Shown: positions 6,779 to 55,894 of the stretch, in pieces
Layout: each line of letters starts with the position of its first letter
Position numbering within the stretch: the stretch's first letter is position 1
NCBI GenBank assembly: GCA_024742455.1
Contig: JANSYL010000002.1
Location: 310,001 to 374,000 of the forward strand
Direction of reading: 5' to 3'
Source of the DNA: Paracoccaceae bacterium
GTDB lineage: Bacteria > Pseudomonadota > Alphaproteobacteria > Rhodobacterales > Rhodobacteraceae
DNA: 64,000 bases
Notes under the pieces: model-generated
What the model was told of the DNA's origin: nothing
What the model saw: the letters and a program-made list of their open reading frames with translations, nothing else
Database searches by the model: none
Made by a program: the position numbers and the translations under genes

Positions 6779-6796
6779 TGTCTATTACGATTGACA
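6779..6796. promoter_or_regulatory. PpsR/CrtJ palindrome upstream of bchC (site 1)
   Basis: TGTCTATTACGATTGACA is an exact TGT-N12-ACA match located 10 nt after the crtF stop. It ends in TTGACA, a plausible -35 element for the bchCXYZ-puf transcript. Confidence 0.87.
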
Positions 6797-6804
6797 ATAC
6801 AAAG

Positions 6805-6822
6805 TGTCAGGTTAAACTTACA
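6805..6822. promoter_or_regulatory. PpsR/CrtJ palindrome upstream of bchC (site 2)
   Basis: TGTCAGGTTAAACTTACA is a second exact match, 8 nt after site 1. Two tandem sites with this spacing are the classical bchC promoter arrangement in Rhodobacter, where PpsR/CrtJ represses under oxygen. Confidence 0.87.
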
Positions 6823-10422: not shown

Positions 10423-11891
10423 TCCAGGATCATGACCGCGCCGGGGGCTACTGGGGCTCCGTCTACGCCTTCACCGCCGTGAAGGGTCTGCAATGCATCA
10501 TCGACGGCCCGGTCGGCTGTGAGAACCTGCCGGTGACCTCGGTCCTGCATTACACCGATGGCCTGCCGCCGCATGAGCTGCCTATCGTGGTGACAGGCCT
10601 GGCCGAGGAAGAACTGGGTCGCGATGGCACAGAGGGCGCGATGAAACGCGCCTGGGATACACTTGATCCGGCCCTGCCTTCCGTTGTGGTTACCGGGTCC
10701 ATCGCCGAGATGATCGGTGGCGGTGTCACGCCGCAAGGCACCTCGATCCAGCGGTTTCTGCCGCGCACCATCGATGAGGACCAATGGGAAAGCGCGGACC
10801 GCGCGATGACCTGGATCTTCACGGAATTCGGCATGACCAAGGGCCGGATGCCGCCCGAGAAGAAGCGCGAAGAGGGAGCTGCCCCCCGCGTCAACATCCT
10901 TGGTCCGATGTACGGCACCTTCAACATGCCTTCGGACCTGGCCGAGATCCGTCGCCTCGTCGAAGGGATCGGGGCCGAGGTCAACATGGTGATGCCGCTT
11001 GGCAGCCATATCGCCGAGATGCGCAACCTCGTGAATGCCGATGTGAACATCTGCATGTATCGCGAGTTCGGGCGCGGGCTGTGCGAGGTTCTGGACAAGC
11101 CTTACCTCCAGGCGCCGATCGGCGTGGAATCCACCACGAAATTCCTGCGCAAACTGGGTGAGCTTCTGGGCCTCGACCCCGAACCCTTCATCGAAAAAGA
11201 GAAACATTCGACCATCAAACCGGTCTGGGATCTCTGGCGGTCAGTGACACAGGATTTCTTCGCGACGGCCAGTTTCGGCATCGTCGCCAACGAAACCTAT
11301 TCGCGCGGCATCCGCCTGTTCCTCGAAGAAGACATGGGGCTGCCCTGCGCCTTCGCCGTGGCACGGACCGCCGGCAAGAAGACCGACAATGAAAAGGTCC
11401 GCGCGATGATCGCGGAAAAGCGGCCACTGATCCTGATGGGGTCGATCAACGAAAAGATGTATCTGGCGGAAATGGCTGCCGGACATGGCCCGAAACCCGC
11501 CTTCATCCCGGCCAGCTTTCCCGGCGCTGCCATCCGGCGCGCCACGGGCACGCCGATGATGGGTTATGCCGGGGCCACTTACCTGATCCAGGAGGTGTGC
11601 AACGGCCTGTTCGATGCACTGTTCCATATCCTGCCGCTGGGCAGCGACATGGATGCCGCCGACGCCACCCCCACGACACTGCGCCGCGACTTTCCCTGGG
11701 ATGATGACGCGCAGGCGCTTCTGGACCGCATCGTGGCCGAACACCCGGTTCTTACACGCATTTCCGCCGCGAAGACGCTGCGCGATGCCGCTGAAAAGGC
11801 CGCGCTCGCCGATGGGGCGGAGCGGGTGATGAAAAACACGGTCGCCAAACTGGCCCCTGCCGGTTTCGTGACGGAGGAGGAGACGGCATGA
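10416..11891 (+). CDS. bchZ: Chlorophyllide a reductase subunit BchZ
   Basis: BchZ is the second catalytic subunit of chlorophyllide a reductase. The 491-residue product contains [26 protein letters not shown] near the N-terminus (first 20 residues of the motif carry the cluster cysteine), then [15 protein letters not shown] and a C-terminal domain. It starts inside the bchY 3' end and its TGA overlaps the pufQ ATG, which ties pigment synthesis to the puf genes on one transcript. Confidence 0.95.
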
Positions 11892-12109
11892 CCGATATCA
11901 GCCCCGACACCCATTGCACGCGCGCCCACAAGCCGCCGCGCACCGAATACCTGATCTATTTCGGGATCATTTTTCTGGCGACCCTGCCGCTGGCCACCCT
12001 GTCCTGGGCTCTGGCTGCGATCCGGCAAGGCAGCCTGACCGACAAAGGGCCGGTCAAACGTGCTTGGACTCAAGCGCGGATCATCACCCCGATGATCTTT
12101 TCGGCCTGA
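11888..12109 (+). CDS. pufQ: PufQ, bacteriochlorophyll synthesis/LH1 expression factor
   Basis: PufQ is a small single-span membrane protein at the head of puf operons and is needed for normal bacteriochlorophyll formation in Rhodobacter. The 73-residue product has a cytoplasmic N-terminus, one hydrophobic helix (roughly residues 21-45, [20 protein letters not shown]) and a basic tail, matching the family layout. The ATG overlaps the bchZ stop. It is followed by a 213-nt leader before pufB. Confidence 0.9.
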
Positions 12110-12322: not shown

Positions 12323-12472
12323 ATGGCTGACAATACCGACCTGTCGTTCACGGGTCTGACCGACGAGCAGGCTCAAGAGCTGCACGCGGTGTACATGAGC
12401 GGGTTGTACCTCTTCGCGGCCGTCGCCGTGGTCGCACACCTCGCCACGTACATCTGGGCTCCCTGGTTCTGA
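12323..12472 (+). CDS. pufB: Light-harvesting complex 1 beta polypeptide PufB
   Basis: This is the LH1 antenna beta subunit, a 49-residue single-span protein. It begins [20 protein letters not shown], has His21 and the bacteriochlorophyll ligand His39 in [14 protein letters not shown], and ends in the Trp-rich periplasmic tail typical of beta chains. A GGAGGA ribosome binding site lies 7 nt upstream. pufA follows after 15 nt. Confidence 0.97.
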
Positions 12473-12487
12473 GGAAGGATTTAAAGA

Positions 12488-12652
12488 ATGGCAAAGTTCT
12501 ACAAGATCTGGCTGATCTTTGACCCCCGCCGCGTGTTCGTGGCTCAGGGCGTCTTCCTGTTCCTGCTGGCAGCGATGATCCACCTGGTGGTTCTGTCGTC
12601 CGGCCTGAACTGGTTCGAGTCGGCCGCGATGACTGCAGGCTTCGGCAACTGA
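12488..12652 (+). CDS. pufA: Light-harvesting complex 1 alpha polypeptide PufA
   Basis: This is the LH1 alpha subunit, 54 residues, starting [20 protein letters not shown]. The transmembrane helix carries the AxxxH pigment motif (Ala28 to His32), and the C-terminal side contains the NWF element. It is normally followed by pufL and pufM; here it is followed by a hairpin and then dxs. Confidence 0.97.
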
Positions 12653-12682
12653 GCCGACCTGATCACGATTGCGATCTAAAGA

Positions 12683-12718
12683 TGCTGCGGGCGGCGCGTG
12701 TCCGCCTCGCCCGCAGCA
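12683..12718 (+). terminator. pufA 3' stem-loop (mRNA stabiliser or terminator)
   Basis: An 11-bp perfect inverted repeat, TGCTGCGGGCG at 12683 and CGCCCGCAGCA ending at 12718, encloses a 14-nt loop. There is no T-run after it, so it looks like the intercistronic hairpin that in Rhodobacter lies between pufA and pufL and protects pufBA mRNA, not a rho-independent terminator. Here it is retained although pufL is absent. Confidence 0.75.
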
Positions 12719-12821
12719 AATTCAGGGCCCCGAGAGCCGATCTTTCGTCTCGACCGAGCGACCACAGACCCCGCTCGTGGCCCGATCCTCGCAGATGATG
12801 CGGGTTTGGGAGGACCCCCGA

Positions 12822-14765
12822 ATGACACGACCAACCGGATATGCCGACAATCCCGACACCCCGGTGCTGGACCGGGTGACCTGGCCCGCCGACCTGCGAC
12901 GGCTGAGCGACGCCGAACTGGCCCGATGCGCCGACGAACTGCGCGCCGAAACGATCTCGGCCGTGTCGCAGACGGGCGGCCATCTTGGATCCTCGCTTGG
13001 TGTCGTCGAACTGAGCGTGGCGATCCACGCGGTGTTCAACACCCCCTATGACAAGCTCGTCTGGGACGTGGGTCACCAATGTTACCCCCATAAGATCCTT
13101 ACCGGCCGCCGCGCCCGCATCCGGACTCTGCGCCAGAAGGACGGTTTGAGTGGATTCACCAAGCGGTCCGAAAGCGATTACGACCCGTTCGGCGCGGCCC
13201 ATTCCTCGACCAGCATTTCCGCCGCGCTCGGCTTCACGATGGCGCGCGAACTGGGCCAGGCAACAGGCGATGCGATCGCCGTGATCGGCGACGGGTCGAT
13301 CAGCGCGGGCATGGCCTATGAGGCGCTCAACAATGCAGGCGATCTTGGCCGCCGGTTGTTCGTCATCCTGAACGACAACGACATGTCGATCGCACCGCCC
13401 ACCGGGGCGATGTCGCGTTACCTCGCCGGTCTTTCCGGTCAATCGCCGCTGGCCGCGCTGAAGGACATCGCCGATGGCGTCGCGTCCCACCTACCCGAAC
13501 CCCTGCGTCAGGGCGCAGAGCGTGCGCGCGAACTGGTCACTGGCCATCCCAAATCCGCGACCCTGTTCGAACATCTGGGCTTCACCTATGTCGGCCCGGT
13601 CAACGGACATGACATGGGCCAACTTCTGTCGGTTCTGCGCGCAGCCAAGGCGCGCGCCACCGGGCCGGTTCTGATCCACGCCGTCACGGTCAAGGGCAAG
13701 GGCTATGCACCGGCCGAAGGGTCCGATTGCTGCTACCATGGCGTTGCGAAATTCGATGTCGCGACCGGCCAGCAGAAGAAATCCGCCGCCAATGCCCCGA
13801 ATTACACAGGCGTATTCGGGGACGAATTGCTGAAGCTGGCCGAACAGGACACCCGTATCGTCGGCGTCACCGCGGCCATGCCGGGCGGTACCGGCCTGAC
13901 GGCGTTGCAAAAGGCGCTGCCGTCGCGGGTCTTCGACGTGGGGATCGCCGAACAACATGCCGTGACGTTCAGTGCCGGGCTTGCGGCAGGCGGGCTGAGG
14001 CCCTTTTGCGCGATCTATTCCAGCTTTCTTCAGCGCGGCTACGACCAGGTGGTCCATGACGTGGCGCTGCAGAACCTGCCTGTGCGCTTCATGATCGACC
14101 GCGCGGGATTGGTCGGCGCCGACGGCCCGACCCATGCCGGGGCGTTCGATATCGGGTTCATGGCCGCCTTGCCCAACATGGTGGTGATGGCCTGCGCCGA
14201 TGAGGCGGAACTGGTGCATATGATGGCCACCGCGGCCGCGCATGACAGCGGACCGATCGCACTGCGTTACCCGCGCGGCGAGGGCACGGGGGCGGCCATG
14301 CCCGAAACGGGCGAAGTCCTCGCGATCGGCAAGGGGCGCATCCTGTCCGAAGGCAGCGATGTGGCGCTTCTGTCGTTCGGTGCGCATCTGTCCGAGGCCG
14401 AAGAAGCCGCCACGGCGCTGCGCGCCCGGGGCATTTCGGTGACGGTGGCCGATGCCAGGTTCGCCAAACCGCTCGACACCGATCTTGTGGATCAGCTTGC
14501 GGATAGCCACCGCGCCCTGATCACCGTTGAACAGGGTGCGGTGCTGGGGTTCGGTGGGCTGGTGTTGCATCATCTTGCAGCGTCGGCGCGGCTCGACGGG
14601 CGGTGTTCGGTGCGAACGATGCATCTTCCCGACCGGTTCATCGACCAGGCCAGCCCGTCCGAGATGTATGCCGATGCGGGCCTCAGCGCCGATTATATCG
14701 CGGCCGAGGCCTTGAGCGCCCTTGGTGCCGTGGACCTGAGCCAGAACAGAAAAGCCCGCGCCTGA
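12822..14765 (+). CDS. dxs: 1-deoxy-D-xylulose-5-phosphate synthase
   Basis: DXS condenses pyruvate and glyceraldehyde 3-phosphate, the first step of the MEP isoprenoid pathway, and needs thiamine diphosphate. The 647-residue product shows [18 protein letters not shown] near the N-terminus, the thiamine diphosphate-binding segment [18 protein letters not shown], and the transketolase domain with [15 protein letters not shown] and [15 protein letters not shown]. The ATG at 12822 after GGGAGGA was chosen; the in-frame extension upstream is the pufA 3' region. A dxs gene directly after puf is a Rhodobacter-type arrangement. Confidence 0.96.
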
Positions 14766-24725: not shown

Positions 24726-27700
24726 CGGCGATCATATCCCCGGCTACCGGGTCGTGATTGTCACGCTGGACCGGCATGCCGCCGGTCCCGCCGCGCGTGC
24801 GATGGAACGGATGGGGGATGAATTCCCCGGCCTGAACGTGTCGATCCATGCCGCCGCCGAATGGGCGGAAACGCCCGAGGCGCTGGAAGAGGCCAGGATC
24901 GCCGTGCGCCATGGCGACATTATCGTCGCCAACCTGCTGTTCATCGAGGAACATATCACCGCCATCCTGCCCGAGCTTGAGGCGCGTCGCGAGGCATGTG
25001 ACGCCATGATCGGCGTCATCTCGGACCGGCAGGTCGTCACGCTCACCAAGATGGGTGAGCTGGACATGCGCAAACCGGCCTCCGGGCCGATGAAGATCCT
25101 CAAGAAGCTGCGTGGCAGCAAGGAGCCGTCTTCGGACAGCGCCGAGAAACAGGCGAAACTGCTGCGCCGTCTGCCAAAGATACTGAAATTCATTCCGGGC
25201 AAGGCGCAGGACCTCCGCGCCTGGTTCCTGACGATGCAGTACTGGCTGGGCGGGTCCGACGACAATGTCGAACAGATGATCCGTTTCCTTGTGGGCCGCT
25301 ACGCCAAGGACAGCGCGTTCCAGGGGGCCGAGGCCGAGGCGCCCATCGAGTACCCCGAGGTCGGGCTTTATCATCCCGATCTGCCCGGCCATCACATCAC
25401 CACCGAGGTGGCCGATCTGCCGAACCCGGAAAACCCGGTGGCCACGGTGGGGGTGCTGATGATGCGCTCCTACATCCTGGCCTCGGATGCTGCGCATTAC
25501 GACGCGGTGATCCGCGGGATGCAGGCGGCGGGCCTGGCCGTGATCCCGGCCTTTGCCGGTGGTCTCGACGGGCGCCCGGCCATTGCGCAGTATTTCGATC
25601 AGGGTCGTGTCGACGCGATGGTGTCGCTGACCGGGTTCAGCCTGATCGGCGGCCCGGCCTATAATGACAGCAACGCCGCCGTGTCGGTGCTCAAGGAGCT
25701 CAACGTCCCTTACATCGCGGCGCATGCGATCGAGTTTCAGACGCTGAACCAGTGGTCCGGCTCGGGCCAGGGCCTGGGCCCGGTCGAGACGACGATGCTG
25801 GTCGCTCTTCCCGAAATCGACGGGGCGACCAACCCCACGGTTTTCGGCGGGCGGCTCGGGCCCGAGCCTTGCACCGGCTGCACCCATGCCTGCACCGCCA
25901 AGGGCGGAACCAAGGCGATGGTACCCTGCCGCGAACGGGTGACGTCGCTGGTGGAAAAGACCCGGCGCCTCGCCATCCTGCGCCGCAAGGAAAACGCGGA
26001 TAAGAAGGTGGGCATCGTCCTATTCGGCTTCCCGCCCAATGCCGGGGCCGTGGGCACCGCCGCCTATCTCAGCGTGTTCGAAAGCCTGTTCAACACTCTG
26101 ACGCGGATGAAGGCCGAAGGCTATGACGTCGAGGTGCCGGACAGCATCGACGCGTTGCGCATGGCGGTTCTGCAGGGCAACGCCAAGCAATACGGCCAGG
26201 AGGCGAATGTCGCCGCCCATGTCGATGCCGACACCATCGTCCGCACGACCCCGCCCCTGAAGGCGATCGAGGCGGTCTGGGGCCCGGCCCCCGGCAAGAT
26301 ACAGTCGGACGGGCAGGGCGTGTTCGTTCTTGGTGCGCATTTCGGCAAGGTCTTCGTCGGTGTCCAGCCAACCTTCGGCTACGAAGGTGACCCGATGCGC
26401 CTGCTGTTCGAAACGGGCTTTGCACCGACGCATGCCTTCACCCAGTTCTATCTCTGGCTCCGCAACACCTGGCAGGCCGATGTGTTGCTGCATTTCGGCA
26501 TGCATGGCGCGCTGGAGTTCATGCCCGGCAAACAGGCGGGCCTCGGTGCCCGGGACTGGCCTGACCGGCTGATCGGCGAAGTGCCGAATGTCTACCTTTA
26601 CGCCTCCAACAACCCGTCCGAGGCGACACTGGCCAAGCGCCGCTCGGGCGCTGTGACCGTCACGCATCTGACCCCGCCGCTGGCGGCTTCGGGTCTGTAC
26701 AAGGGTCTGTCCGAATTGAAGGACAGCCTGACCCGCTGGCGCGCCCTTGGCCCCGATGCGCCGGAACGGGGTGAGTTGGCCGAGCTGATCGCCGCGCAGG
26801 CCGAAGCTGTGGACCTTGCGGGCCACGACCCCGACGCCCTGTGGCTGACGCTGCTGGAAACCGAAGACGCGCTGATCCCTGACGGGTTGCATGTCGTCGG
26901 TCGCCCGATCACCGAGGAAGAATTGGCCGAACATCTGCGGGTGATGGCCGCAACCGATGACGAGACACGCGCCCGGGTTGCCGACCTCTTGCGGCAGGAG
27001 ACGGAACTGACCGGGCTGATGCGGGCGCTGTCGGCCGAATATATCGAACCGGTGCCCGGCGGTGACCTGATCCGGTCGCCCGAAGTGCTGCCTTCGGGCC
27101 GCAACATCCATGCTTTCGACCCGTTCCGCATGCCCACCGCCTTTGCCTTGCAGGACGGTGCGAAACAGGCGGATCGTCTGATCGAAGCGGCCGGCGACAT
27201 GCCCCGATCGGTCGCACTGGTTCTCTGGGGCTCGGACAATATCAAGTCCGATGGTGGCCCGATCTCCCAGGCCCTCGCGCTGATGGGCGCGACCCCCCGT
27301 TTCGACGGCTACGGCCGTCTCTGCGGCGCCGACCTGATCCCGCTCGAGGATCTGGGCCGCCCGCGCATCGACGTGGTGATGACGCTTTCGGGCATCTTCC
27401 GCGACCTCCTGCCGCTGCAGACCCGGATGCTGGCCGAAGCCGCCTACAAGGCGGCGACGGCCGATGAACCGGTGGAGCGGAACTTCGTCCGCGCCCATGC
27501 GCTCGATTACATGGACAAGATGGGCGTCGGGATCGAGGAAGCTGCTTTGCGCGTCTTCTCCAACGCCGAAGGCGCGTATGGCGCAAACGTCAACGGTCTG
27601 ATCGACAGCGGCGCCTGGGCCGAGGAAGACGAACTGGCTGACGCCTATCAGGCGCGGAAGTGTTTCGCCTACGGCATGGACGGCAAGGCCACGAAGAATG

Positions 27701-28278
27701 CGGGGCTTCTGCAAAGCGCCCTGAAAGACGTCGATCTGGCCTATCAGAACCTCGAAAGCGTCGAACTGGGTGTCACCACGGTAGACCATTATTTCGACAC
27801 GCTCGGCGGCATTTCCCGCGCGGTGAAACGCGCCAAGGGCGGCAAGGAAGCCCCCGTCTTCATCGGCGACCAGACCCGGGGTGAAGGCAAGGTCCGCACC
27901 TTGCAGGATCAGGTGGCACTTGAAACCCGGTCGCGCAGCCTGAACCCGAAATGGTTCGAAGGGCTTTTGAAACACGGCCATGAAGGCGTGCGCCAGATCG
28001 AGGCGCAGGTGACCAACACGCTGGGCTGGTCGGCCACCACGGGACAGGTCGACCCCTGGGTCTATCAGCGCCTCTCTGAGACCTTCGTGCTGGATGAAGA
28101 CATGCGCCGCCGCCTGGCGGAGCTGAACCCCCAGGCTTCGGCCCGGATGGCGAACCGCCTGATCGAGGCGTTCGAACGCAACTACTGGCAACCCGACGAT
28201 GAAACCTTGGCTGCGCTTCAGGCTGGCGCGGATGAGCTGGAAGACACGCTCGAAGGTCTCACCGTGGCCGCCGAATGA
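24715..28278 (+). CDS. bchH: Magnesium chelatase large subunit BchH
   Basis: BchH binds protoporphyrin IX and is the catalytic subunit of magnesium chelatase together with BchI and BchD. The 1187-residue length matches the family. Diagnostic stretches include [39 protein letters not shown] and [14 protein letters not shown]; a [13 protein letters not shown] cysteine cluster lies near residue 387. It starts 11 nt inside bchB, and bchL follows after 12 nt. A 1083-codon frame on the opposite strand here is only a GC-rich shadow. Confidence 0.97.
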
Positions 28279-29252
<974 letters not shown>

Positions 29253-29253
<1 letters not shown>

Positions 29254-29945
29254 TGGTGGCCACGCCGACATACGGGCGCACGCGCGACCGGGTCGAAGCC
29301 TATTTCGACCGCACCGCTACAAAGACGTGGGAGCGGTTGACCTCGGACGCGCCGGTATCGGGCATTCGCCAGACCGTCCGCGAAGGCCGTGACCGGATGC
29401 GCGCCATCATGCTCGGCCGTCTGCCCGAAGACCTGTCCGGGCAGCGGGTGCTGGACGCCGGATGCGGCACCGGCGCGATGACCGAGGAACTGGCCCGTCG
29501 CGGGGCCGAGGTAGTGGCAATCGACATCTCGCCTGCCCTGATCGGCATTGCGCGCAGCCGCCTGCCCGCAGACCTGAAGGACAGGGTGACCTTTCTCAGC
29601 GGGGACATGCTGTCGCCTGCCCTCGGCCGGTTCGACCATGCCGTCGCGATGGATTCGATGATCTATTACGAGGCCCCGGACCTCGCGCAAGCGATCACCG
29701 CGCTTTCCGGACGCGTTACAGGGCGCATCGTGTTCACGGTGGCGCCACGCACGGCTTTCCTGATGGCCTTCTGGGGCATGGGCAAACTGTTCCCGCAATC
29801 GGACCGGTCGCCCAGCATGATCCCGCATGCGCCCGCGCGCCTGTCGCGCGCCATCGCCGCCGGGGGCGGCACCGGCACCCTGACCGAGATCGAACGGGTC
29901 AGCCGAGGTTTCTACATCTCGACCTGCCTGGAGTATGCAAAATGA
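29253..29945 (+). CDS. bchM: Magnesium-protoporphyrin IX methyltransferase BchM
   Basis: BchM methylates the C13 propionate of Mg-protoporphyrin IX with SAM. The 230-residue product has the motif VLDAGCGTGAMTEELARRG and the start MVATPTYGRTRDRVEAYFDR typical of the family. The ATG at 29253 overlaps the bchL stop; an open frame extends 37 codons upstream inside bchL and is rejected. lhaA overlaps its end by 4 nt. Confidence 0.95.
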
Positions 29946-31400: not shown

Positions 31401-32189
31401 ATGACACCCTTAGACACCCCATTCTTCGGCAATTTCGACCTGGCCAGCCTGTCGATCTGGCTGTTCTGGATCTTCTTTGCGCTGCTGGTCTACTACCTGC
31501 AGACCGAGAACATGCGCGAAGGCTACCCGCTGGAAGCCGATGACGGCGGCGAAGCCGCCAACCAGGGTCCCTTCCCGCTGCCCAAGGCGAAGACCTTCAA
31601 GCTGCCCCATGGCCGGGGTGAGGTCACCGTTCCCTCCGCCGAGAACGAAGCGGCCCATCGCCGGACCAACCTCGCGCTGGAACAGACCTCCAAGGCCGGC
31701 GGCTTCCCCTTCGCACCCACCGGCGATCCGATGCTCGACGGTGTCGGCCCGGCGTCCTGGGCCCCGCGCCGTGACGCGCCGGAACTGGACGGCCACGGCC
31801 ATCCGAAAATCGTGCCGATGGCCCAGACCGAAGCCTACCGCGTCAGCGCCGGGCGCGACCCGCGCGGTCTGCCGGTCGTCGCCGGGGACGGTGCAACCGT
31901 GGGTGAGATCACCGATATCTGGATCGACACCCCGGAACAGCTGGTTCGTTATCTTGAGGTGACGCTGAACGACGACCACGGGGGCGGCACCCGCCTGATC
32001 CCGATCAACCTGGCCGTCATCCGCAGCGACCGCGTCAAGGTCCGGTCCATCTTCGGCAAGCATTTCGCCAACGTGCCGCAGATCAAGTCGGGCACCCAGG
32101 TGACCCTGCTCGAGGAAGACAAGATCACCGCCTACTACGCCAGCGGCAATCTTTACGCCTCCGAGGATCGTCTGAACCCCTACGCCTGA
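31401..32189 (+). CDS. puhA: Photosynthetic reaction centre H subunit
   Basis: PuhA caps the cytoplasmic face of the L/M core and guides protons to QB. The 262-residue protein has a single N-terminal membrane helix (about 12-31, [20 protein letters not shown]), then [11 protein letters not shown] and a PRC-barrel domain with [20 protein letters not shown]. It is full length with no frameshift, which matters because the partner genes pufL and pufM are not in this window. Confidence 0.96.
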
Positions 32190-32222: not shown

Positions 32223-32870
32223 ATGCCCCATGATCACCACGACGATTTCCAGGTGGAACCGATCCCGGGATTGCCCGAAGCCCTGCCTCAGGGTGAGGAG
32301 ATCCTGTGGCAAGGTCGCCCATCCTGGATCGCGCTGGCGGTCGAGGCGTTCGGTGTCCTCTGGGTCGCGGCCATCACGCTGGGCCTTGCGGCGTGGCGTG
32401 TCATCGCCGCCTTCGCAGGGGCACCGTGGGAGGCGAACATCGCGCTCGCCATTGCCATCGCCATTCTTGGCGGTGGCCTTGCGGCGGTCCTGTGTCTGGC
32501 GGCCTGGCTGCAGGCGCGCGAGACGGTCTACACCCTGACCACGGGCCGCGTCGTCATGCGCTTTGGCGTCATGCAGACGATGAAACTTCAGATCCCGTTC
32601 AACCGCATCCGCAATGCGGCCTTGTCGATCGGGCGATCGGGCGCGGGAACCATCGCGCTCGATATCACCGGGGCGGGCAACCTGTCCCACATCCTGTCCT
32701 GGCCGCATGTGCGGCCCTGGCACACCAGGCCCATGCAACCGGCGCTGCGCTGTATCGCCGGGGCGCAGGACGTGGCGCAGCTTCTGGCTGAAGCGGCTGA
32801 AACCGCGCTGACCACCCCCACCATCGACCGGACGCCTGCCTACGCGGCAGCGGCCACAGCGGCGGAGTGA
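32223..32870 (+). CDS. puhB: Photosynthetic complex assembly protein PuhB
   Basis: PuhB assists reaction-centre assembly in Rhodobacter. The 215-residue product begins with a His/Asp-rich N-terminus, has LPQGEEILWQGRPSW, about two or three membrane helices, and a PH-like domain with TLTTGRVVMRFGVMQTMKLQ and IPFNRIRNAALS. It follows puhA by 33 nt. The expected next gene, puhC, is missing. Confidence 0.92.
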   Translation: MPHDHHDDFQVEPIPGLPEALPQGEEILWQGRPSWIALAVEAFGVLWVAAITLGLAAWRVIAAFAGAPWEANIALAIAIAILGGGLAAVLCLAAWLQARETVYTLTTGRVVMRFGVMQTMKLQIPFNRIRNAALSIGRSGAGTIALDITGAGNLSHILSWPHVRPWHTRPMQPALRCIAGAQDVAQLLAEAAETALTTPTIDRTPAYAAAATAAE

Positions 32871-32875
32871 CACTC

Positions 32876-32986
32876 ATGCGCCGCCCCTGTCCCTTTCCCC
32901 TTTACGTGATCCCGCATTCAGACCGCGGTGTCCGGGGGCAGGGAACCACCCTGATCGCGGGACTGTCCCGCAAGCTGGAGGAATGA
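32876..32986 (+). CDS. Small ORF (36 aa) in the position of puhC
   Basis: The ATG at 32876 is preceded by GGAG with 8-nt spacing, and the TGA at 32984 ends 2 nt before the bciE start. The peptide begins MRRPCPFPLYVIPHSDRGVR and ends in a basic/acidic LSRKLEE. It shows no membrane helix and no resemblance I can recognise to PuhC, which is about 150 residues with an N-terminal membrane anchor. It may be a real microprotein, a remnant left by puhC deletion, or a chance frame that carries the bciE leader. Confidence 0.4.
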   Translation: MRRPCPFPLYVIPHSDRGVRGQGTTLIAGLSRKLEE

Positions 32987-36417: not shown

Positions 36418-36493
36418 GGCGCGGATTTGATTTGACCGTCAAGGGCAGACCACCTAGCCAGAATCGGGGACCAAGGAATTGGGAGACGAAACC

Positions 36494-36973
36494 ATGAATC
36501 ACATCCGTACCGCTCTGGCTGCCACGCTGTTTTTGATGCTGGCCTCACCGGCTGCATTCGCGCAGGACGTGACCGGTGACGCAGCCAATGGCGAGCGCCT
36601 GTTCAACCAGTGCTCGACCTGCCACAACGTCACGAATGCCGAGGGCGATGTCCTGGCCGGGCGTCCGAACATGCGGACCGGCCCGAACCTTTACGCCGTG
36701 TCCGGCCGCACAATCGGCAGCATCGAGGATTTCCGTTATTCCGACGGTCTGATCGCTTTGGGCGAAATGGATATGGTCTGGGATCAGGCGAACTTCATCG
36801 CCTATGCACAGGATCCCACCGGCTTCATCCGCGAGGCCTCCGGCAACAACCGGCTGCGCGGCGCGATGGCGTTCCGTGCGCGTTCGGAACAGGACGCGGC
36901 TGATCTCTATGCCTATCTGCGCTCCCTCGCACCCGTCGAGGAAGAGGCCGGGGAGGCCGCGCAGGAGGGCTGA
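36494..36973 (+). CDS. cycA: Periplasmic cytochrome c2 (CycA)
   Basis: Cytochrome c2 shuttles electrons between the cytochrome bc1 complex and the oxidised reaction centre or oxidase. The 159-residue precursor has a signal peptide cleaved after AAFA (residue 23), the haem motif CSTCH at 40-44, and Met125 (RGAMAF) as likely sixth ligand. A C-terminal Glu/Ala-rich tail extends beyond the usual fold. It sits 76 nt after hemA, the Rhodobacter-type arrangement. Confidence 0.94.
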   Translation: MNHIRTALAATLFLMLASPAAFAQDVTGDAANGERLFNQCSTCHNVTNAEGDVLAGRPNMRTGPNLYAVSGRTIGSIEDFRYSDGLIALGEMDMVWDQANFIAYAQDPTGFIREASGNNRLRGAMAFRARSEQDAADLYAYLRSLAPVEEEAGEAAQEG

Positions 36974-50755: not shown

Positions 50756-51868
<1,113 letters not shown>

Positions 51869-51871
51869 CCG

Positions 51872-52117
51872 ATGGATTGCGGCGCGGCGGCCATGCCTGT
51901 CCCTGCGGCCCTGTTCGTGATCGGGGTTCTGGTCACCACCGTGGTCGTGGCACGGCGCGAAAGGCTTGGCATCAAGGACACGCTTCTGGTGATGATCGGG
52001 CTGCGCCGTTTCGGCCAGTCCCGCCTTGTCACGTCGCTGTTGCTGATCACCCTTTTGCTGCCTGTAGGGTTATGGGTGGCACTGAACGAAGCCTGCAAGG
52101 CAGGGCTTGCGGCCTGA
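51872..52117 (+). CDS. Small membrane protein, function unknown
   Basis: The 81-residue product has two hydrophobic segments (about 8-26 and 53-72) separated by a basic loop with RRERLGIKDTLLV. It starts 3 nt after frmA, so it is probably co-transcribed. An internal ATG at codon 8 is an alternative start. No family was recognised. Confidence 0.6.
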   Translation: MDCGAAAMPVPAALFVIGVLVTTVVVARRERLGIKDTLLVMIGLRRFGQSRLVTSLLLITLLLPVGLWVALNEACKAGLAA

Positions 52118-52149
52118 CCCGGCCCGACGCAGAACGAAAGGACCCTTCC

Positions 52150-52542
52150 ATGAGCAAACGCATTTTCACCGCCGGGCTGCTGACCTGCGCGCTCGCGCTT
52201 CCGGCCTCGGCCGAAGGCTGGAGCGTGATCGATTTCACGTCGATGCCCGATATCGCGACCTGTGTCAGCCATGCCGAGGCCGCGATCGGCGTCTACAGCC
52301 AGACCTACCCGGCACCGGTCGACGTGGTGGTCGCGCAAAGCACCATCGGGGCATACGGCCTGCGCGGCAACGTGGTGGACGGATTGTTCGTCTGCACCGA
52401 GATTGCGGGTCTCGTGGCGCCTATGCTGGTGGTCCACAACTCCGACGATGATACCGACGCTCGTATCCTGATCGCCGACCGTCTGGCCGAAGCCTGGGAT
52501 GCGGTGGCAGCAGGGGCCTCGCCCGGTGCCCCGAAGGAGTGA
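52150..52542 (+). CDS. Exported protein of unknown function
   Basis: The 130-residue product has a signal peptide (MSKRIFTAGLLTCALALPASA, cleavage after residue 21 likely) and a small domain with two cysteines (CVSHAEAA and FVCTEIAG). The ATG follows an AAAGGACC element. It ends where the GNAT gene starts. No family was recognised. Confidence 0.7.
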   Translation: MSKRIFTAGLLTCALALPASAEGWSVIDFTSMPDIATCVSHAEAAIGVYSQTYPAPVDVVVAQSTIGAYGLRGNVVDGLFVCTEIAGLVAPMLVVHNSDDDTDARILIADRLAEAWDAVAAGASPGAPKE

Positions 52543-53036
52543 TGCCTGACATCCGCCCAGCCGGGCCTGGGGATCGCGACGCCATTGCCGATATCCTGCT
52601 GCCCGTCTTCGGGGCGGGTGAAACCTATGCCGTCGATCCCGGCCTCGATGCCGCTGGCGCGCTCGACTACTGGTTCGGCGGCGGTCGCCGCGTGTTCGTG
52701 GCTGAACGCAGCGGCACCATCCTCGGCACCTATTACATTCGCCCGAACCAGCCCGGCGGCGGGGCCCATGTGTGCAATTGCGGCTATGTGACGGCGGCCC
52801 GGGCCACGGGCCGGGGCGTCGCACGCGCAATGCTGGACCATTCCATCGCCCGGGCCCGCACCGAAGGATACCGCGCGATGCAGTTCAATTTCGTGATTGC
52901 CAGCAACCTGCGCGCCATCGAGACATGGCAGCGCAACGGGTTCGACATCGTCGGGCGCCTGCCGGGGGCCTACCGCCACCCAAGCCTCGGCTATGTCGAT
53001 GCGCTGGTGATGTTTCGCGATCTGACGGAGGCGTAA
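52542..53036 (+). CDS. GNAT-family N-acetyltransferase
   Basis: The 164-residue protein has the GNAT fold: DIRPAGPGDRDAIADILLPV at the N-terminus, the acetyl-CoA loop region ATGRGVARAMLDHSIARA and the C-terminal ASNLRAIETWQRNGF, a conserved substrate-side segment. The ATG is preferred over a GTG 3 nt earlier, because the adjacent stop TGA overlaps it. Substrate unknown. Confidence 0.85.
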   Translation: MPDIRPAGPGDRDAIADILLPVFGAGETYAVDPGLDAAGALDYWFGGGRRVFVAERSGTILGTYYIRPNQPGGGAHVCNCGYVTAARATGRGVARAMLDHSIARARTEGYRAMQFNFVIASNLRAIETWQRNGFDIVGRLPGAYRHPSLGYVDALVMFRDLTEA

Positions 53037-53039
53037 GGG

Positions 53040-53477
53040 ATGCGCAGCGGGTTTTCATGCATCGTGTTCGCCACGGCTCTTCTTGCGGCGGACGCCCTTG
53101 CCGATCAGGCACCGATGCTGCAACCGGAGCCGTTCCTGCTGCTGCGCTCCGGCCCTGAGGTCGTGGCCGCTGGGCCCCGGGAAATCACCGATATCGAAAT
53201 CTCGGAAAGCGGCGGGCGTACGGATCTGTTCATCCGCCTCGGGGCCCCGGCAGCAGCTGCGCTGGGCCGTGCCACATCGGGGCCCGCGGCCGAACCCCTC
53301 GGCGCGACGATCTGCGGCCGCCCGGTCGACGTCGTCGAGCTGCCCTTGCCGGTCATCAGCGGCACGGTTTACATCGCCGACCGCACGGCGCAGGAGGGGG
53401 AGGCGATGCGCGCGCTGTGGTCGGGTCGAACCCGTTGCGCCGCCCTCAGCCCGGAGGTCTTTTCCAATGCCCAGTGA
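53040..53477 (+). CDS. Exported protein, weak resemblance to a SecD periplasmic domain
   Basis: The 145-residue product has a signal peptide (cleavage after ADALA likely). The rest has a pattern of strands DLFIRLGAPAAAALGRATS, LGATICGRPVDVVELPLP and a final helix EGEAMRALWSG that recalls the SecD P1-type repeat, in which a strand, helix and hairpin alternate. This resemblance is only by eye. Its end overlaps the NYN gene by 11 nt. Confidence 0.65.
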   Translation: MRSGFSCIVFATALLAADALADQAPMLQPEPFLLLRSGPEVVAAGPREITDIEISESGGRTDLFIRLGAPAAAALGRATSGPAAEPLGATICGRPVDVVELPLPVISGTVYIADRTAQEGEAMRALWSGRTRCAALSPEVFSNAQ

Positions 53478-54180
53478 CACGCCGCTGCTCGCCGTCCTGA
53501 TCGATGCTGACAACACGTCCCACAAACACGCCAAGGCGATCTTCGACGAGATCGCGGGGTTCGGCGAGGCCAGCGTGCGCCGCATCTACGGCGATTTCTC
53601 GTCCAGCCACATGAAGGGCTGGTCGAACGTGCAGGCTGAATTCGGGATCGTGCCGCATCATCAGCCCGCGAACACCGTGGGCAAGAACGCCAGCGATATC
53701 GCTCTGGTGATCGACGCGATGGACCTCATGCATTCCAACCGGTTCGACGGGTTCGTGCTGGTTTCTTCGGACAGTGATTTCACCCGGCTGGCCAGCCGCA
53801 TCCGCGAACAGGGGCTGGAGGTCTACGGGATCGGCCAGCAGAAAACGCCCGAACCCTTCCGAAAGGCCTGCAAGCGTTTCATCTTCATCGAAAACATCCT
53901 GCCGCAGGCCGATGATTCCAAGACCGCCGCGGACCGCAAGCCTGACACCAAGGCCCTGACCGACGCGCGCGACCTCATCTTCCGCGCGATGGAGGCGATC
54001 GATCAGGATGATGACTGGTATTCGCTGGGCCAGATCGGCCAGTACATCACGGCCGCGAACCCCGATTTCGACACCCGCACCTATGGAAAACGCAAGCTCA
54101 GCGACCTGATCGAAAGCATCAAGGCGCTGGAGGTGCGCCGCGATCAGGGTCGCCAGATTCAGGTGCGGCGGCTGGACTGA
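53467..54180 (+). CDS. NYN-domain protein with C-terminal OST-HTH/LOTUS-like domain
   Basis: NYN domains are PIN-like RNase folds. The 237-residue product shows the acidic residues LAVLIDADNTS, NASDIALVIDAMDLM and LVSSDSDFTRLASRIRE, expected metal ligands, and a C-terminal helical domain (about 165-230) with SLGQIGQYITAANPDFDTRT, which looks like OST-HTH/LOTUS. Such fusions are widespread in bacteria, with suspected RNA-binding roles. Start chosen at 53467 because the upstream frame lies in the previous gene. Confidence 0.87.
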   Translation: MPSDTPLLAVLIDADNTSHKHAKAIFDEIAGFGEASVRRIYGDFSSSHMKGWSNVQAEFGIVPHHQPANTVGKNASDIALVIDAMDLMHSNRFDGFVLVSSDSDFTRLASRIREQGLEVYGIGQQKTPEPFRKACKRFIFIENILPQADDSKTAADRKPDTKALTDARDLIFRAMEAIDQDDDWYSLGQIGQYITAANPDFDTRTYGKRKLSDLIESIKALEVRRDQGRQIQVRRLD

Positions 54181-54186
54181 AACCCG

Positions 54187-54804
54187 TCAGGTGCGCGCAT
54201 AACGTGCCATGAAGGTGCGCACCGCCTCCTCGGCGACGCGGTCGATATCGGCGTCGCGCGGGGCGGTCTGGATGCCAAACATGATCTTCAACATCAGGTC
54301 GGTCCGGCAAAGCTGGCACAACTGATCGGCAGCCAGCGCGATATCGTCGATCTCGAACACCGCCTGCGCCGCCGGTGACCGCAGGTAATCGCCGATCTTG
54401 CGGGTCCAGCGTTTCGGCCCGCTTTCGTAAAACGCCTGCCCCAGTTCCGGAAACCGCTGCGATTCCGCCACGCAGACGCGGAACATGTCCTGCCCGAAGG
54501 GCGACAGCATGAATTCGACCAGGGTCTTGCAGATGAATTGCAGGGTTTGCGGCACGTCCATCGTGCCCCCCTCGATCATCAGTTCGACCTCGGACTGGTG
54601 CGCGCAATCGGCGGTCAGCACCGCGAGAAACAGGTGCTGCTTGTCGGGAAAGTAACTGTAAAGCGTGGCCTTCGACACGCCGGCATCCCGCGCGATGGTG
54701 TCGACGCTGGCGCCCTCATAGCCTTCACGCATGAAGACATCGCGCGCCCCGGCGATGACCTGGTCGTATTTCCGACCCTTCTTGATCTGAGCTTCCATCG
54801 TCAT
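54187..54804 (-). CDS. TetR-family transcriptional regulator
   Basis: The 205-residue protein has an N-terminal HTH (about 14-58, GASVDTIARDAGVSKATLYS) and a C-terminal ligand-binding domain of the AcrR/TetR_C type. A 15-bp inverted repeat lies 35 nt upstream of the start and may be its operator. The convergent NYN gene ends 6 nt away. Confidence 0.92.
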   Translation of the reverse strand: MTMEAQIKKGRKYDQVIAGARDVFMREGYEGASVDTIARDAGVSKATLYSYFPDKQHLFLAVLTADCAHQSEVELMIEGGTMDVPQTLQFICKTLVEFMLSPFGQDMFRVCVAESQRFPELGQAFYESGPKRWTRKIGDYLRSPAAQAVFEIDDIALAADQLCQLCRTDLMLKIMFGIQTAPRDADIDRVAEEAVRTFMARYART

Positions 54805-54838
54805 GTGGAGACGTCCCCTTCTCCTGCTGCGATCTTAG

Positions 54839-54853
54839 ACTGATCCGTTCAGT
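54839..54853. promoter_or_regulatory. Inverted repeat, possible TetR operator
   Basis: ACTGATCCGTTCAGT has perfect 5-bp arms around TCCGT. It lies in the 139-nt gap between the divergent tetR-like gene and the AEC transporter gene, so it may control either gene. The rest of this gap shows nothing else distinctive. Confidence 0.5.
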
Positions 54854-54943
54854 TTGGGCAAGTTGCGGGCAAAACAAGTGGCCGGCCCCGCTGGTGCCAT
54901 CCTCCATCTGGACGCCGCCCCGCAGGTTCGCTAGCGCAGGGTC

Positions 54944-55894
54944 ATGGTCGAGATATTCCTGAAAACGCTGCCCTTCTTCGCGCTGATCGCGCTCGGCTAT
55001 CAGGCCTGCCGCACCGGATTCTTCACCGCGGAAGCCGCGGCCTACCTGACCAAGTTCGTGTTCTACTTCGCGCTTTCGGCCATGTTGTTCCGGTTTTCGG
55101 CCAATCTTTCGGTGGCCGAGGTGTTCGATTGGTGGTTCGTCGCCGCCTATCTCTGGGGCTGTTTCGTCGTTTACCTGATCGCCACCGCGGTGGCCCTGAT
55201 CCGCAGGATCGGCATCGAACAGGCCGCAGTCGAGGCGCAATGTGCCGTCATCGGCAATACCGGGTTTCTGGGCGTGCCGATGCTGGTGGTGCTGATGGGG
55301 CCGGATGCGGCGGGGCCGGTCCTGATGGTGCTGGCGCTCGATCTGATCGTGTTCTCCAGCCTGATCGTGATCCTGATCACCGGCAGCCGGGACGGACGCA
55401 TGTCGCTTGGCGTGCTGAAGACCGTGGGCCTCGGTCTGGTGAAAAACCCGATGATCGTGTCAATCACCCTCGGGCTTGCATGGTCGGGCACCGGATGGGC
55501 GGTGCCGGGCCCGGTGAATGAATTCCTGGCCATCCTGGGCGCCGCCGCCACCCCTGGCGCGTTGTTCGCCATCGGCGCGTCGCTGGCGGGCAAGTCCGCC
55601 GAACGCGTATCGGTCGCGGGCTGGCTGACCTTCTGCAAGCTGGTGCTGCACCCGGCGGCGGTGGCCTTCGCCGCGCTTCTTTTGTTCCCGGTGCCGATCT
55701 TCGATGCCGCCGTCATGATTGCGGCAGCGTCCCTGCCGGTGGCGGGCAATGTCTATATTCTTGCGCAGCATTACGGGGTCGCGCCGCAGCGGGTCTCGGC
55801 CTCGATCCTGATCTCGACCGCGCTCAGCATCGTGACCGTTTCGCTGATCATCGCCTGGGTCTCCGGCCTTGCCGGTATCGTCCCGGGTGGCTGA
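54944..55894 (+). CDS. AEC (auxin efflux carrier)-family transporter
   Basis: The 316-residue membrane protein has about ten spans with the family halves FKTLPFFALIALGYQA-like N-terminus and the repeat in the C-terminal half (AASLPVAGNVYILAQHYGV, a hallmark PxxxxxYxLAxxYG segment). AEC members transport dicarboxylates or other anions, and no specific substrate can be inferred. It is divergent from the TetR gene. Confidence 0.88.
   Translation: MVEIFLKTLPFFALIALGYQACRTGFFTAEAAAYLTKFVFYFALSAMLFRFSANLSVAEVFDWWFVAAYLWGCFVVYLIATAVALIRRIGIEQAAVEAQCAVIGNTGFLGVPMLVVLMGPDAAGPVLMVLALDLIVFSSLIVILITGSRDGRMSLGVLKTVGLGLVKNPMIVSITLGLAWSGTGWAVPGPVNEFLAILGAAATPGALFAIGASLAGKSAERVSVAGWLTFCKLVLHPAAVAFAALLLFPVPIFDAAVMIAAASLPVAGNVYILAQHYGVAPQRVSASILISTALSIVTVSLIIAWVSGLAGIVPGG

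Follow-up and report, generated by a model that had tools for sequence, protein, structure and literature searches.

The puf operon of the Paracoccaceae bacterium analysed here was very probably split by replacement: a cassette encoding a PufX-type reaction centre (RC) displaced the resident RC of a pufC-type phototroph. The native RC genes are missing from their usual place, and the bacterium apparently runs on a cassette of another lineage located elsewhere in its genome. The antenna and pigment genes are encoded in a stretch of 64,000 nucleotides, referred to here as the window, and the RC cassette is found on a different contig, C18.

Gaps in the puf and puh loci of the window

The pufA stop codon (TGA, 12652) and the dxs start codon (ATG, 12822) are separated by 169 nt (Table 1), as the original prediction had it. 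It had also claimed that pufL, pufM, pufX and pufC are all missing from this gap, and indeed no sequence of these genes was found in the 169 nt, nor is there anything else RC-like. The layout thus departs from the canonical one, in which pufBA is directly followed by pufLM. A profile search of the whole genome gave no Photo_RC match (PF00124) in the window, which agrees with the claim that the window lacks L/M-like sequence elsewhere. PF00556 (LH1) matched twice in the genome, at the pufB and pufA of the window, and no other LH1 genes are present. pufC (PF02276) is absent genome-wide and present in the close pufC-type genomes searched alongside; the window PufA is identical to that of one pufC-type genome, G235.

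The hairpin that usually precedes pufL, noted in the original prediction, is still located downstream of pufA. This region is similar to the spacer between pufA and pufL in close relatives (local scores of 24-33, reached in 0-7 of 300 shuffles), and its fold is strong (-36.4 kcal/mol, z -2.1). The role of this hairpin in canonical Rhodobacter operons is to stabilise the pufBA mRNA relative to pufLM. When leftover pufL, pufM or pufC sequence was sought in the gap by comparison with relatives, the hairpin was the sole remnant. Similarity of the 3′ half to the pufC-dxs spacer of the relatives is confined to the ribosome-binding-site stretch and is non-significant for most of them.

A second gap, beyond the observations of the original prediction, is found in the puh locus. 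The window reads puhA-puhB-orf-acsF versus puhA-puhB-puhC-orf-acsF in relatives of its cluster, and the only puhC of the genome is the copy on C18. The second pufQ and second puhB on C18 are likewise new. Analysis of the window PuhB showed that it is 47-52% identical to relatives that share 66-76% among themselves, and that it sits on a very long branch (1.5 versus 0.18-0.36), which is not the case for the adjacent PuhA. Such fast evolution would fit the loss of an old partner.

Altogether, 17 PpsR-type sites were predicted in the window, where 5.1 are expected. One pair (6779/6805) is located at the bchC end of bchCXYZ-pufQBA. The gene for a soluble c-type cytochrome, found downstream of puhE and hemA, presumably encodes the electron donor used without PufC. 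An open frame of 1083 amino acids runs antisense to bchH and bchL (26020-29271, minus strand) and is probably an effect of G+C-rich codon usage.

Table 1. Features of the window and of the contig C18 cassette. Positions without a contig name refer to the window.
Feature	Position	Strand	Evidence
Paired PpsR-type sites (TGT-N12-ACA)	6779..6822	+	start of bchCXYZ-pufQBA; like the pair before pufQLMX on C18
pufQ, native copy	11888..12109	+	PF05398, E 3e-35; 74% to Roseicyclus PufQ
pufB, LH1 beta, native	12323..12472	+	PF00556
pufA, LH1 alpha, native	12488..12652	+	PF00556; 54/54 identity to PufA of G235
Scar, site without native pufL-pufM-pufC	12653..12821	+	relatives have pufLMC between pufA and dxs
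pufA-pufL intercistronic hairpin, now 3′ end of pufQBA	12683..12718 (about 12679-12721)	+	fold; homology to pufA-pufL spacers of relatives
dxs, native	12822..14765	+	84% to Roseicyclus
puhA, reaction-centre H subunit, native	31401..32189	+	PF03967 and PF05239
puhB, native assembly factor	32223..32870	+	bPH_2; 47-52% to relatives
Second scar, from puhB to the orf before acsF, without native puhC	32871..32982	+	gene order of relatives
Soluble c-type cytochrome gene (cycA position)	36479..36973	+	ORF with CXXCH motif, downstream of puhE and hemA
Second puhB	C18 55153-54518	-	bPH_2
puhC	C18 54514-54053	-	TIGR03054
Second pufQ	C18 53812-53567	-	PF05398
pufL	C18 53402-52554	-	TIGR01157/TIGR01115 for L and M
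pufM	C18 52561-51638	-	TIGR01157/TIGR01115 for L and M
pufX	C18 51628-51398	-	PF11511

A reaction-centre set of other ancestry on contig C18

The genome contains only two PF00124 matches, both on the minus strand of C18 (51653-52411 and 52584-53315). The prediction of a split cluster is correct in that pufL and pufM were both found elsewhere in the genome; the RC genes are, however, not the cluster's own but a PufX-type set of other ancestry. They belong to a cassette (minus strand, 51398-55153) with the order puhB-puhC-[two PpsR-type sites]-pufQ-pufL-pufM-pufX. The paired sites between puhC and pufQ are at 53908-53925 and 53934-53951, and a single PpsR-type site is located upstream of puhB (55241-55258). 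The pufX gene follows directly 3′ of pufM; its product matches the solved PufX chains in the PDB weakly (E 2e-4). pufLM and puh genes are thus encoded together without LH1 or bch genes, and the PF00556 search of the whole genome found no pufBA on C18.

Since an intact RC set is present in the same genome, the suggestion of an LH1-only lineage is refuted. It is also very improbable that phototrophy is being lost, with a decayed native RC and the C18 set left as a non-expressed remnant: the C18 genes are all intact, none of 230 highly conserved PufLM positions is changed, PpsR-type sites are present and the bch, LH1 and puhA genes have been retained.

Phylogenetic analyses separate the cassette from the window. 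Taken together, BchZ, Dxs and BchC of the window have Roseicyclus sp. M30B49 as their sister (99/92), G235 branches next (100/98), and both of these genomes read pufQBALMC-dxs. The C18 PufLM falls within a PufX-type clade of 11 members (100/99). A tree constrained to unite it with the Roseicyclus clade is worse by 252 log units and is rejected (AU p 1.9e-83). An origin of the C18 PuhC within the Roseicyclus kind is also rejected (p 2.3e-5, in PuhC trees that have long branches), and evidence against PuhB grouping with the Roseicyclus kind is weaker (p 0.013). RC and LH1/bch genes therefore do not have one shared history. These results reject a simple relocation, in which native pufLM and puhC would have moved within the genome with their ancestry unchanged. 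Location in the same genome, the similar G+C contents (0.665 and 0.649) and the presence of pufQ on both sides, which could mean a duplication, would fit such a move; placement of PufLM and PuhC outside the lineage of the window and pufX in place of pufC speak against it so strongly that it is scarcely credible. In a Roseicyclus MAG, pufC is found in two pieces with a stop (G303, contig C19, 377974-378910), which points either to a PufC that is decaying in the sister lineage or to an error of the assembly.

The tetranucleotide correlation between C18 and the window is 0.91, compared with 0.63-0.83 for the loci of close relatives. Genes for a glycerate kinase, a ribokinase and an acyl-CoA ligase are located beside the cassette and are also found together in Roseicyclus. 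The glycerate kinase is 75-80% identical to proteins of the Roseicyclus clade, except for G291 (52%); in the remaining genomes compared, almost all of its matches share 35-54% identity with it. C18 also encodes fmt, rnhA and peptide deformylase-like genes. The tetranucleotide signature, the synteny with Roseicyclus and these additional genes make a place in the chromosome of the same genome likely. No mobility genes were found among the flanking genes of the annotated part of C18, and PLSDB contains no plasmid with a PufM closer than 79%; these two sources revealed neither an integrating conjugative element nor another transfer vehicle. An empty site was sought upstream of the glycerate kinase gene in four relatives; no clean one was found, and the far flank is not shared.

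Related cassettes in other genomes

To place the cassette among known pufLM loci, named genomes and a family scan with one genome per genus were surveyed, which yielded 163 distinct pufLM loci whose upstream sequence was long enough. LH1 genes are located just upstream in 157 of these. The six loci without them all belong to a puhC-pufLMX cassette: C18, the second RC locus of G194 and loci in four marine Rhodobacteraceae genomes (Marinovum sp. NAT183, AH-326-E22, AG-390-B07 and AG-359-N23). Five further candidates (L060, L067, L079, L101 and L139) were rejected, being cut by contig ends. In all six cassettes puhC precedes pufL-pufM-pufX, and a PpsR pair lies between puhC and pufL or pufQ in each of the five examined (C18, G194, G300, G301, G302). 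Content varies, with puhB and pufQ present only in the C18 cassette, and the flanking genes differ among the three lineages.

In addition to the cassette, G194 has a native puhC and a complete pufQBALMC-dxs of its own. The four marine genomes, partial assemblies of 1.4-2.0 Mb, contain the cassette RC only and no pufC. We assume that G299-G302 may belong to the COR cluster. For two of the four, each of which also carries the cassette, the native locus could be identified: pufQBA and dxs are separated by 158 nt in G302 and by 355 nt in G300, where the pufL start is retained (MVLLSFQRKYR vs MALLSFERKYR). Loss of the native RC in G302 looks young, because its cluster shares 93% identity with that of G164, in which pufLMC is intact. 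Grouping of the marine cassettes with the pufC-type relatives of their hosts is rejected (p 1.7e-10).

The same type of scar in independently assembled genomes makes the proposed assembly deletion very unlikely. More generally, a draft genome (2.88 Mb, 21 contigs, completeness 98.75, contamination 0) could suggest an artefact, either C18 mis-binned from another organism or pufLMC lost from the window during assembly. Considering the scars in G302 and G300, the signature and synteny of C18, which match the host clade, and the absence of contamination, we regard this as quite improbable; moreover, puhC and pufC are both gone, which one assembly error would not produce.

Further observations concern other loci. 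In the marine genomes, a divergent gene for a pseudoazurin-like cupredoxin adjoins the puhC-pufLMX cassette (L043, 7658-8152; L044, 7612-8106); its product could donate electrons to an RC that lacks PufC. In G057, an intact PufX-type operon is accompanied by a second, divergent pufL-pufM-pufC set on another contig (L292/L294, C3 51403-54216), which is of the pufC type and has no LH1 genes in the 1.5 kb upstream. A pufM match in G188 (C1:646190-646948, L028) lies inside an open frame of 614 amino acids, well beyond the normal length, which may reflect either a fusion or an extension arising by chance in G+C-rich sequence.

The PuhC proteins of the cassettes form one clade (97/93), and monophyly of the cassette PufLM is allowed (p 0.285) and unsupported. 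Because of the PuhC clade and the common layout, a single origin of the cassette is suggested. We hold it to be somewhat more probable than not that a self-regulated cassette of single origin (puhC - PpsR-type promoter - pufLMX, in the present genome with puhB and pufQ) invaded pufC-type phototrophs on several occasions and took the place of the resident RC. Alternatively, an ancestor of several Rhodobacteraceae might have held both RC sets, followed by differential loss with little or no recent transfer. The long branches within the one old PuhC clade would be compatible with this, as would the sister relationship of the C18 and G194 cassette PuhCs (90/87), whose native clusters are moderately close; the different flanks in three lineages, the presence of the cassette in only six of 163 loci and the scattering of its hosts across the native-cluster tree render it unlikely. 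Counted against displacement are possible chimeric joins at the cassette edges, the long branches of the PuhC trees, the differing contents of the cassettes, the partial nature of the marine assemblies and the failure of the searches described above to reveal a transfer vehicle.

For the displacement of the native RC we propose the following course, in which the transfer direction, the succession of steps, and the expression and assembly of the complex are inferred. The ancestor would have had a normal pufC-type cluster with pufQBALMC-dxs and puhABC. The PufX-type cassette puhB-puhC-[PpsR-type promoter]-pufQ-pufL-pufM-pufX would have settled elsewhere, probably in the chromosome, and two RCs would have coexisted, which is the state seen in G194. 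Native pufLMC and puhC would then have been deleted, leaving pufQBA-dxs and puhAB-orf-acsF. The resulting core complex would be chimeric, with foreign L, M and PufX, the native H subunit and native LH1, and the soluble cytochrome might feed the RC in place of the PufC tetrahaem subunit. The pufQBA message would now terminate at the hairpin after pufA. Co-regulation of the two loci could be maintained by the PpsR-type sites present at each, and the LH1:RC ratio, formerly set by one mRNA, would be set by two promoters.

Meaning and comparison with known systems

PufX-type RC sets apart from the cluster are found in pufC-type hosts, including a genome with both types and hosts without the native set. 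Therefore, phylogenies of pufLM or pufM are no sure guide to the remainder of the photosystem. If the displacement is true, the RC on the one hand and the LH1/pigment machinery on the other are modules that can be exchanged in nature, and working core complexes can be chimeras of two lineages. This would offer a natural test of how LH1, PufX and the H subunit depend on one another and of what determines the LH1:RC ratio once the shared mRNA is broken. In the open-licence literature we found no description of a split pufBA/pufLM arrangement, nor any account of a displaced native RC, of a pufQBA-dxs scar, or of a puhC-PpsR-pufLMX cassette that is shared between genomes and occurs repeatedly.

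The closest precedent is the extra pufLMC-puhCBA of Citromicrobium sp. JL354, an incomplete second cluster encoded in an integrating conjugative element (PMC3338782). Both cases comprise a set of RC and assembly factor genes in one genome, without LH1 or pigment genes and with an ancestry unlike that of the resident cluster. In Citromicrobium, however, the complete resident cluster is kept, whereas here the native RC is gone. The Citromicrobium set is of the pufC type, includes puhA and lies in the conjugative element; the present one is of the pufX type, lacks puhA, has PpsR-type sites and was not seen in such an element.

Seven pelagic Roseobacter genomes of the COR cluster carry pufLMX as well as pufLMC according to the pufM tree of another study (PMC12661815). 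These resemble G194 in having two RC types per genome; the part of that account dealing with the tree describes no scar, split operon or puhC-bearing cassette.

In Rhodobacteraceae clusters, replacement of pufC by pufX together with horizontal transfer has been reported (PMC6052148, PMC6739100). As in the present case, a PufX-type RC stands in for a PufC-type RC and horizontal transfer is involved. There, pufX is in place within a canonical operon, with an inferred single origin and transfer of whole clusters, whereas here the RC cassette alone is foreign and is located elsewhere. The cassette data conflict with the statements that pufC was "replaced by pufX once" (PMC6052148) and that "no known phototroph has both" pufX and pufC (PMC12654162).
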